The notes below the pieces were generated by a model, which was not told the origin of the DNA, did no database searches, and was given only the letters and a program-made list of their open reading frames with translations. The translations under genes and the position numbers were made by a program. From Myxococcales bacterium (GTDB lineage: Bacteria > Myxococcota > B64-G9), in assembly GCA_012798435.1 (NCBI GenBank), contig JAAZNF010000090.1, positions 1 through 35,842 of the forward strand: a stretch of DNA of 35,842 nucleotides. Direction: 5' to 3'. Position 1 is the first letter of the stretch, and each line of letters begins with the position of its first letter. Positions 25,532 to 31,175 of this stretch are shown piece after piece.

Positions 25532-26527
25532 TCAGGAAGGCGGCTCGAGCAAGGAGCGGATGGTCTCGCGCAGGGTGTGCTGGGGGCGGAAGCCCAACAC
25601 CTCACGGGCGCGCCGGCCGTCCACCATGCACTGGTAGCGCAGGTGCGGGAGTTCCCCCGGCGGGAAATTCACCAGGCCGAGCTTCCACAAACGAGAGAGC
25701 AGCGGCCGGGCCAGGAAGTGGGGGATGGGCACCGGTCGCCGGCCCAGCTCGGCCAGGATGCGCGACAGGGGCGCCTCGCCCGGGCCGACCACGTTGAACA
25801 CCCCGCGCCGGCCCGGCTCCAGGGAGAGCAGCACCGCCTGGATGAGGTCGTCCTGGTGCAGCAGCTGCACCATGGGATCGAAGCCGAGCAGCACCGGCGG
25901 GTTGGTCAGGCGCAGGTAGTTGGAGGGCGCGTTGCGCACGTGCGGGCCGATGACGTGCACCGGGCGCAGGATGACGCACTCGATCTCCGGGTGACGCCAC
26001 AAGAAGTTCTGGGCGTAGATGTCCCACTCGATCAGCGCGCGCTCCTCGGGGTACTCCTCGCCGCCGCGCAGGGGGGCCTCCTCGGTGAGGAAGTTGCTGT
26101 TGTCCGGCCGGGCGCCGTAAGCGTAGGCCGAGGACAGCAGCACCACCTTGGGCACCTGGTACTTGGCGCAGTATTCGAGGAGCTTGACCGTGCCCTCCAC
26201 GTTGAAGTCGCGGTGCAGGTTGCCCGAGCGGGTGGGGCGGTGCAGCAGGCCCAGGTGGATCAGCGCGCGCACCTGGTGGTGGCGGAAGATGTCCTCGGCC
26301 TTGCGGCGGCGCGCGTCGATGGCGTAGTGCAGGATGTCCTTGGGCCGCCCCTCGAAGGGCCGCTGGTCGATGCCGACGATGGGGAAGCGGGTGTGCAGGC
26401 GGCGGGCCAGCAGCCGGCCCAGGTTGCCGCTGATGCCGGTGATCACCAGCGGACGCATATCGGCCGGCCGCTCGCGGCGGCGCGCGGCGGTCCGGGCGGG
26501 GCGGGGATGGGTGTCACCAGAAGACAT
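25532..26527 (-). CDS. NAD-dependent epimerase/dehydratase-like protein (extended SDR)
   Basis: 331 aa from ATG 26527, which overlaps the acyltransferase stop by 14 nt (GAAGG ~9 nt upstream). ATG 26458 would start exactly at the Rossmann fold but has no ribosome-binding site. The NAD-binding glycine motif is ITGISGNLGRLLARRL, followed by an acidic strand end (GIDQRPFEG) and HLGLLHRP. SSAYAYGA marks the catalytic Ser region. The expected Tyr-x-x-x-Lys reads Tyr-Pro-Glu-Glu-Arg (EEYPEERALIEWDIY), so the catalytic Lys seems replaced. The NAD-site end is ECVILRPVHVIGPHVRN, and LLHQDDLIQAVLLSLE and VFNVVGPGEAPLSRIL are typical of UDP-sugar epimerase relatives. Substrate unknown; it may be a non-catalytic or altered member. 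Co-transcription with an LPLAT acyltransferase suggests envelope lipid or glycolipid metabolism. Confidence 0.85.
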   Translation of the reverse strand: MSSGDTHPRPARTAARRRERPADMRPLVITGISGNLGRLLARRLHTRFPIVGIDQRPFEGRPKDILHYAIDARRRKAEDIFRHHQVRALIHLGLLHRPTRSGNLHRDFNVEGTVKLLEYCAKYQVPKVVLLSSAYAYGARPDNSNFLTEEAPLRGGEEYPEERALIEWDIYAQNFLWRHPEIECVILRPVHVIGPHVRNAPSNYLRLTNPPVLLGFDPMVQLLHQDDLIQAVLLSLEPGRRGVFNVVGPGEAPLSRILAELGRRPVPIPHFLARPLLSRLWKLGLVNFPPGELPHLRYQCMVDGRRAREVLGFRPQHTLRETIRSLLEPPS

Positions 26528-27374
26528 GTCTTCGCGCCTTCAGCCCGTCGCGCAGCATGCGCTGGATGGTGCCCTTGACCTGTTTCACCTTCTCCTCGAC
26601 CACGGCGTCCTCGTCGTCCGGATCGCCCTCGAACGTCATGGGCTTGCCGAAATAGATGGTGTACTTGCTGGGGGCGGGCAGCATGGAGAGCGGCCCCAGC
26701 AGGGGCATGCTGAGCGGGATGGGCAGGTTGGGAAAGCCGAGCAGGCGTGCCCCGGCGCGGAAGTTCGCCACCGCGATGGTCTGCTCCTCGGCCCCGACCA
26801 CCGCCACCGGCACGATCGGCGCGCGGGCCTCCAGCGCCAGGCGCATGAACCCCAGCCCGAACTCCTGGAGCTGGTAGCGCTGCGAGTAGAGCTTGTTGAT
26901 GCCGCGCACGCCCTCGGGGAAGGCCAGGATGGCCTCCTCGCGCTCCAGCAGCAGGCGGCAGTTCTCGCGGGTGCCCACGATCTGGCCGTTGCGCGGGAAG
27001 AACCAGGACACCACCGGCAGCGAGGGCACCCACGATTCGACCATGCTGCGCACCATGCGCGGCGGCTCCCGTTCCAGCATGCAGGAGGCGATGATCATCA
27101 TGCCGTCGAAGGGGAGCTGTCCCGAGTGGTTGGCGATGAGCAGCACCCGGCCGTCGGGGACGTTCTGAATCCCGACAGCGCGCACCCGGAAGTAGTGCCG
27201 GTAGAGCGCGCACACGAAGGGCACGGTGTACTTGACGAACTCGGGGTTGAAGCCGAAGGGATCGACGCCGAACTCGTTCACCCGGGTAGGCAGGCGCTGG
27301 ATCTTCTCCAGCACCTTGGGATCGGCCAGGCGCTCCAGGGCGGTCTTCAGTTTGTCGACGATCGGCTCGAACAA
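26514..27374 (-). CDS. Lysophospholipid acyltransferase-family protein (PlsC/MGAT-like)
   Basis: About 286 aa from TTG 27374, which has GGGAGG 4 nt upstream and a promoter whose predicted start is near 27395. The TTG at 27413 lies upstream of that start and is rejected. The acyl-acceptor His motif is NHSGQLPFDGMMI (His and Asp separated by six residues, the form used in LPLAT/MGAT-like members, rather than HX4D). The phosphate-binding motif FPEGVRGINK (EGxR type) follows, and then PIVPVAVVGAEEQ. There is a hydrophobic segment near VLLIANHSG but no signal peptide. The enzyme would transfer an acyl chain to a lysolipid or glycerol derivative at the inner membrane; the acceptor is not predictable. 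It is the first gene of a two-gene operon with the epimerase-like gene. Confidence 0.87.
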   Translation of the reverse strand: MFEPIVDKLKTALERLADPKVLEKIQRLPTRVNEFGVDPFGFNPEFVKYTVPFVCALYRHYFRVRAVGIQNVPDGRVLLIANHSGQLPFDGMMIIASCMLEREPPRMVRSMVESWVPSLPVVSWFFPRNGQIVGTRENCRLLLEREEAILAFPEGVRGINKLYSQRYQLQEFGLGFMRLALEARAPIVPVAVVGAEEQTIAVANFRAGARLLGFPNLPIPLSMPLLGPLSMLPAPSKYTIYFGKPMTFEGDPDDEDAVVEEKVKQVKGTIQRMLRDGLKARRHVFW

Positions 27375-27401
27375 GACCCCTCCCGGCCCGCAAGCGGATG
27401 C

Positions 27402-27430
27402 AAGGTACCACAATCACGAGGCTCTGTCAC
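27402..27430 (-). promoter_or_regulatory. Extended -10 promoter of the acyltransferase operon
   Basis: Minus strand: GTGACA (27430-27425), 17-bp spacer, TACCTT (27407-27402) preceded by TGG, i.e. an extended TGnTA -10. The predicted start is ~27395, 21 nt before the TTG start codon at 27374. Confidence 0.55.
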
Positions 27431-27511
27431 ATCAAAACCGAGAACACGGGCGCGGCGCTGCCTCCTTGCGCCCTCGGAGAACGCGAGGCGGAAATTCCCC
27501 TGATTAAACGC

Positions 27512-27541
27512 CAAGGCTCCGTCCTTGCGAACGGAGCCTTG
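27512..27541. repeat. Perfect 11-bp inverted repeat
   Basis: CAAGGCTCCGT (27512-27522), an 8-nt loop, then ACGGAGCCTTG (27531-27541). It would form a stable hairpin in either strand. No T-run follows on either side, so it is not a textbook terminator; it could be an RNA hairpin or an operator. Confidence 0.65.
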
Positions 27542-27852: not shown

Positions 27853-27895
27853 TGCGGACCGTGACAGCGATGTCAGACGATGCGGCCGGTCCGCA
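27853..27895. repeat. Hairpin 1 of the array, with nested GNRA hairpin
   Basis: Outer arms TGCGGACCG (27853-27861) and CGGTCCGCA (27887-27895) are perfectly complementary. Directly inside is TGACA-GCGA-TGTCA (27862-27875), a 5-bp stem capped by a GNRA tetraloop sequence. It is followed by CGCCGCGAA, the same box that follows hairpins 2 and 3, so it looks like a diverged first unit. Confidence 0.55.
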
Positions 27896-27940
27896 CAACT
27901 TTCACGCCGCGAACGGGTGGCCGGAGGCGCGGCTGCTGGC

Positions 27941-27997
27941 GATGAGTCCTCCCAACTGCTCGGCGCAAAGCCGCCTGCGCTGCGTGGAGGACTCATC
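27941..27997. repeat. Hairpin 2 of the array
   Basis: Arms GATGAGTCCTCC (27941-27952) and GGAGGACTCATC (27986-27997) form a perfect 12-bp stem around a 33-nt interior, which itself can pair as CGGC/GCCG. Confidence 0.75.
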
Positions 27998-28039
27998 TGG
28001 CGCGCCGCGAACAGGTGGCCGGAGGCGCGGCTGCTTGAC

Positions 28040-28096
28040 GGCGAGTCCTCTTAGTTGCTCGCCGCCGAGCCGGCTCCGCTACATAGAGGACTCGCC
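28040..28096. repeat. Hairpin 3 of the array
   Basis: Arms GGCGAGTCCTCT (28040-28051) and AGAGGACTCGCC (28085-28096) form a perfect 12-bp stem around a 33-nt interior (with GCTCG/CGAGC inside). Compared with hairpin 2, three stem positions differ, and each change is matched on the other arm. Confidence 0.75.
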
Positions 28097-28142
28097 TGGC
28101 GCGCCGCGAATGTGGCCAACACGGTGCGGCTGCTCTCGGCGC

Positions 28143-31175
<3,033 letters not shown>

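Follow-up and report, generated by a model that had tools for sequence, protein, structure and literature searches.

The stretch of DNA analysed here, called the window (35,842 nucleotides, contig C15 of a 5.05-Mb assembly of 129 contigs, from a genome with no congener in the genome collection compared), contains two tandem hairpins that differ from each other in ways that preserve their base pairing, and this raises the question of what has kept the pairing intact: the locus in which they now lie, or the history of the repeat itself. The hairpins form an array on the 3' side of ligA (NAD-dependent DNA ligase, 28143–30158, minus strand), whose product is 46–56% identical to LigA of named records, many of them deltaproteobacterial or myxobacterial MAGs, and whose 3' end points toward the array. 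The next minus-strand gene (26514–27413), probably encoding an acyltransferase on the basis of its translation only, starts ~0.5 kb from the array; upstream of it is a strong, separate inverted repeat, CAAGGCTCCGTCCTTGCGAACGGAGCCTTG, at 27511–27540, which occurred once in the 1.16 Mb examined.

The array behind ligA

Two kinds of part alternate on the plus strand: 33-bp boxes with the consensus GCGCCGCG-N15-GCGCGGCTGC, and longer hairpin modules, which we call A. Box 1 (ACGCCGCG-AACGGGTGGCCGGAG-GCGCGGCTGC, 27904–27936) was found by a whole-genome pattern search with one mismatch to the consensus, and is followed by a hairpin module of subfamily c (GATGAG type, 27927–28009) with the inverted end arms GCGCGGC and GCCGCG. 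These 83 nt are also present on contigs C124 and C9, are near-identical on C101 (twice), and have a related counterpart on C32. Box 2 (GCGCCGCG-AACAGGTGGCCGGAG-GCGCGGCTGC, 28002–28034) is exact to the consensus and leads into a module of subfamily b (GGCGAG...CTCTTAGTTGC type, 28025–28108), and a degenerate box 3 (GCGCCGCG-AATGTGGCCAACACG-GTGCGGCTGC, 28101–28133) ends 9 bp short of the stop codon of ligA at 28143, so that the array does abut ligA, as a sequence-only reading of the locus had stated. The main 12-bp stems, both supported by covariation, span 27941–27997 in hairpin 1 (GATGAGTCCTCC at 27941–27952 with GGAGGACTCATC at 27986–27997) and 28040–28096 in hairpin 2 (GGCGAGTCCTCT at 28040–28051 with AGAGGACTCGCC at 28085–28096).

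That reading had described two 12-bp stems, offset by 99 bp and with loops of 33 nt each, that differ at three pairs with every difference matched on the opposite arm, and our analysis bears this out. It had also held that the interior varies freely at constant length; the lengths are indeed equal, but two of the 10 interior differences are matched (C/G to T/A at hairpin pair 31–57, and G/C to C/G at pair 38–49) and the interior is itself folded. On each strand the region folded more strongly than all 100 of its dinucleotide-shuffled controls (z of about -3.7 to -4.0). The third, diverged hairpin that it had placed at 27853–27895 is a real inverted repeat (9-bp arms at 27853–27861 and 27887–27895, plus strand) near the box at 27904, but it lacks homology to hairpins 1 and 2, lies outside the family, and is not repeated as they are within 1.16 Mb of the genome examined.

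A genome-wide family of hairpins and boxes

A covariance-model search identified 49 matches to hairpin A in the window's own genome (43–55 by BLAST), and the region 27896–28142 gave 55 BLAST match places there, so the further copies with paired changes that the sequence-only reading had predicted as support were obtained. A ligA-specific element is thereby ruled out, with ~49 copies elsewhere in the genome: the excess of paired changes over chance stands, but its assignment to a ligA 3' UTR element gives way to a repeat dispersed over ~40 unrelated loci, of which the window hairpins represent two subfamilies (c and b). Throughout the genome, hairpin A is bounded by the inverted arms seen at the window, and the box joins neighbouring modules. 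The box pattern matched 53 times at up to one mismatch, as against once for a reversed control pattern, and 79 times at up to two mismatches (20 for the control), which puts the number of box copies at ~50–60. Its interior is a fixed 15 nt, of about three sequence types by eye.

Other cassettes are also found between boxes, namely module B (CCGACCGGGGGC...GGTGGTCGG) and module C. A GTTAAAC-like motif in module B had us consider an integron attC site, which was rejected because inspection by eye revealed no left box complementary to it. Module C hairpins, e.g., GCCGTCAAGGG...CCCTTGACGGC and AGCATGMAGGCATGCTC, were observed at L222 (G000:C49:14289-14587) and also at L049, L055 and L221, sometimes between the terminal repeats CTGACCGYACCTCAC described below.

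Gene context was assessed in ~1.2 Mb of sampled sequence, the loci of which were partly picked for holding copies, using a simple codon-usage gene caller, uncalibrated against curated annotation, that gave 954 genes and 90% coding sequence. In this sample 57 of 59 loci were intergenic, though intergenic sequence makes up only ~10% of it. Of 42 box and hairpin A loci, 27 had a stop codon no more than 60 nt away (9.6 expected; 0 of 1000 randomisations as high), some of them being solo boxes 3–22 nt past stop codons and mostly in gene orientation. Arrays faced either way with respect to the gene, and some lay between divergent genes.

Shared and private changes in the pairing

Among 32 distinct copies of hairpin A, 95.3% of cells were paired and seven pairs showed two-sided changes, with 48 two-sided cells as compared to 15.9 in shuffles (0 of 500 as high). 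The covariation score was 0.185 versus 0.104 in shuffles (0 of 500), and fell to 0.062 or less when the partner was slid by 1–3 columns. As for strand preference, unique wobble states numbered 13 for G-T and seven for A-C.

When the variant pair states of 43 near-full copies were sorted by their number of carriers, two classes behaved very differently. All six states present in at least three copies were two-sided and Watson-Crick, although these fall on few subfamily branches and so are not fully independent, while only two of the 22 single-copy states were two-sided Watson-Crick and the remaining 20 were one-sided or broken (one-sided Fisher ~7e-5, calculated by hand). Because shared states are all paired and private ones mostly broken, pairing was preserved in the spreading lineage or its founders, and individual copies drift without upkeep at each locus. 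The split is therefore compatible with selection acting on the unit as it spreads, or with copying of one arm at a founder stage, and not with selection for structure at the ligA locus.

Arm-copying is the main mutational rival. Template switching during replication, which has been proposed as a source of hairpins and as a means of creating and maintaining them through compensatory changes (PMC8794818), would copy one arm of the imperfect palindrome onto the other, so that the repeat could be mobile or amplified and its pairing need no function. Some paired changes do separate the subfamilies together (27–61 and 31–57), as a single such event would produce; however, the 20 one-sided or broken private states have been left unrepaired, subfamilies a, b and c and the single copies C72_2159 and C58_8242 each combine the paired changes differently, and conserved non-paired stem positions persist instead of being homogenised. 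We regard this explanation as possible but unlikely.

Less probable still is a host role in regulation or 3'-end processing, in which hairpins behind ligA and other genes would stabilise or terminate transcripts and pairing would be selected locus by locus. The clustering near stop codons of copies outside the terminal-repeat element, and the orientation of the solo boxes behind genes, are what this would predict, and REP-like repeats have been found behind genes, where they may function within the RNA (PMC3733652). Against it, private mutations mainly break pairs, arrays stand in both orientations and between divergent genes, the hairpins have no Rfam match, and neither window hairpin is followed by a T-run on either strand as an intrinsic terminator would be; proximity to stop codons may instead reflect where insertions are tolerated. 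We therefore consider such a role doubtful.

Tandem growth, carriers and relatives

A fraction of the copies is carried by a second kind of element. At ~17 loci, most of them with hairpin A, we identified non-coding elements, mostly of ~180 bp, with 15-bp terminal inverted repeats (CTGACCGYACCTCAC), and ~15 of the 49 hairpin A copies lie in them. Their 9-bp target duplications are exact at C91, C92 and C72, and match at 8 of 9 positions at C10, C96, C118 and C59; five of the 17 have a stop codon at 60 nt or less (3.8 expected), and no parent transposase was found for them. A motif similar to the palindrome GGGGACAGGCCCC, to which we return below, was seen beside one of them at C38:20809-20829.

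One of these elements accounts for the tandem spacing. The first unit of the window is identical to sequence on C9 over 135 nt and on C124 over 87 nt, and the C124 unit sits inside a transposon-like terminal-repeat element whose sister copies (C10, C72 and C91) lack it; removal of exactly 98 bp, i.e., one hairpin and one box, from the C124 copy restores the structure of its sisters. Because C124 thus shows the insertion of a 98-bp hairpin-and-box unit, we take the 98–99 bp tandem spacing to be the length of the added unit. The left and right 15-nt segments of each locus were alike at 10.3 of 15 positions, as compared to 8.8 in shuffled pairs (p 0.004), and five were exact, and because they match above expectation the neighbouring box is probably duplicated or copied when a unit is added. 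That the hairpins are mere passengers of the ~180-bp element, with the free copies as its debris, is very unlikely: it would account for the ~15 copies within such elements, but the majority of A copies, the two window hairpins among them, have boxes instead of terminal repeats at their sides, boxes and module B also occur without these repeats, the 98-bp unit was inserted into the element on C124, and the window locus has no CTGACCGYACCTCAC ends.

The sequence-only reading had recognised no known element here. This holds for Rfam, where no family matched even at a permissive threshold, but not for the kind of element, as REPIN-, BIME- and BOX-like repeats are known. As in REPINs and BIMEs, a ~100-bp hairpin lies within short conserved ends of alternating orientation, is extragenic and forms arrays, and its changes are compensatory, as has been described for the spacer of Pseudomonas REPINs (PMC3116915). 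The palindromic units are repeated and extragenic, and the inverted ends enclose a folding spacer that contains the seven pairs with two-sided changes. There are differences, however: ~50 copies instead of hundreds, several different hairpin cassettes, and a hairpin foot (TTGAC|GGCGGG...CCCGCC|TTGC) without GTAG or a variant of it. Nor was a RAYT (Y1) gene flanked by the same repeat found: the genome has two Y1-transposase fragments, both at contig ends with one flank each out of view, and neither has boxes or A hairpins on the flank seen, on which ground a RAYT-driven REP was rejected. Because both the RAYT association and the GTAG tag were tested and neither was found, the repeat is not a proven REPIN, and it belongs with the REPIN/BIME/BOX kind in its apparent workings. 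A short palindromic repeat, GGGGACAGGCCCC, adjoins a Y1 (RAYT-like) fragment at a contig end (L120, G000:C75:66664-68416, about 1290–1400) and is possibly this genome's RAYT-linked REP family.

The BOX elements of Streptococcus pneumoniae are also composite: between their end modules they hold tandem stem-loop units in varying numbers (PMC3049150). Here, by contrast, a hairpin and a 33-bp box make up the tandem unit and the boxes serve as the ends, and no sequence relation is expected. Part of the copies resemble MITEs, being in a non-coding element of ~180 bp with terminal inverted repeats and target duplications, but those in the window lie outside it. CGTC-tagged REPs, too, are small palindromes that follow genes and lack a dedicated transposase (PMC3733652), though their stems are of 8–9 bp with loops of 4–5 nt, as opposed to a 12-bp stem and a structured 33-nt interior.

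Searches of 195 genomes of the phylum found hairpin A in no other genome at BLAST sensitivity (three matches of 26–27 nt, with E-values of 1e-4 to 7e-4, were taken as chance), and none was found in plasmids, viral contigs or GTDB contigs. A homolog of module B is dispersed in one sister genus, G005, and by eye the base of its stem shows matched changes; this genus has a dispersed mosaic of its own, consisting of the module-B hairpin and repeated CGCGACTC...GCGAATAAAGCA tracts (L061, L067, L070, L073, L076 and L078). In the sister genus G008 the hairpin A model gave one weak match (35 bits, E 0.001), at L230 (G008:C158, 3423–3915), which has a box-like junction and may be distantly related to the mosaic; the same region holds short tandem repeats (ctatcggcgtccgcg). 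The A-start motif was absent from the 217 kb of G008 sampled, in which only ~2 would be expected at the density of the source genome.

Based on these results, the ligA-side locus is very probably one locus in a mosaic of short, palindromic, non-coding repeats of a REPIN/BIME/BOX-like kind that extends across the genome. The mosaic has two kinds of module, short end arms of alternating orientation (GCGCGGCTGC and GCGCGCCGCG) around a fixed 15-nt segment, i.e., the box, and hairpin cassettes between boxes (A at the window, B and C elsewhere), with one hairpin plus one box as the tandem unit of 98–99 bp. We infer that the hairpin has been retained since the unit must fold in order to propagate or persist, be it in RNA or in single-stranded DNA during replication or excision, a requirement also proposed for REPINs; copies that landed behind stop codons would be tolerated as 3' UTR hairpins and later decay. 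At the window, a young subfamily-c unit would have joined a pre-existing hairpin of subfamily b. No transposase gene was found adjoining the elements, and gene conversion or unequal recombination, instead of transposition, could also account for the spread of the box-hairpin unit. For mosaic hairpin repeats as a family-wide class we speculate, with little confidence, that they spread as folded single-stranded units by means of a non-RAYT enzyme, insert precisely at their own 10-bp ends, grow into arrays by cassettes of 98–99 bp, and swap A, B and C between boxes.

With this finding, a poorly sampled bacterial lineage gains a family of mosaic hairpin repeats for which no mobilising enzyme is obvious. 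The family is also a clear example of base-pair covariation that stems from the lineage in which a repeat spread, where such covariation is usually taken as proof of RNA function at a locus, and the split between shared and private states, which tells the two readings apart, is reusable.
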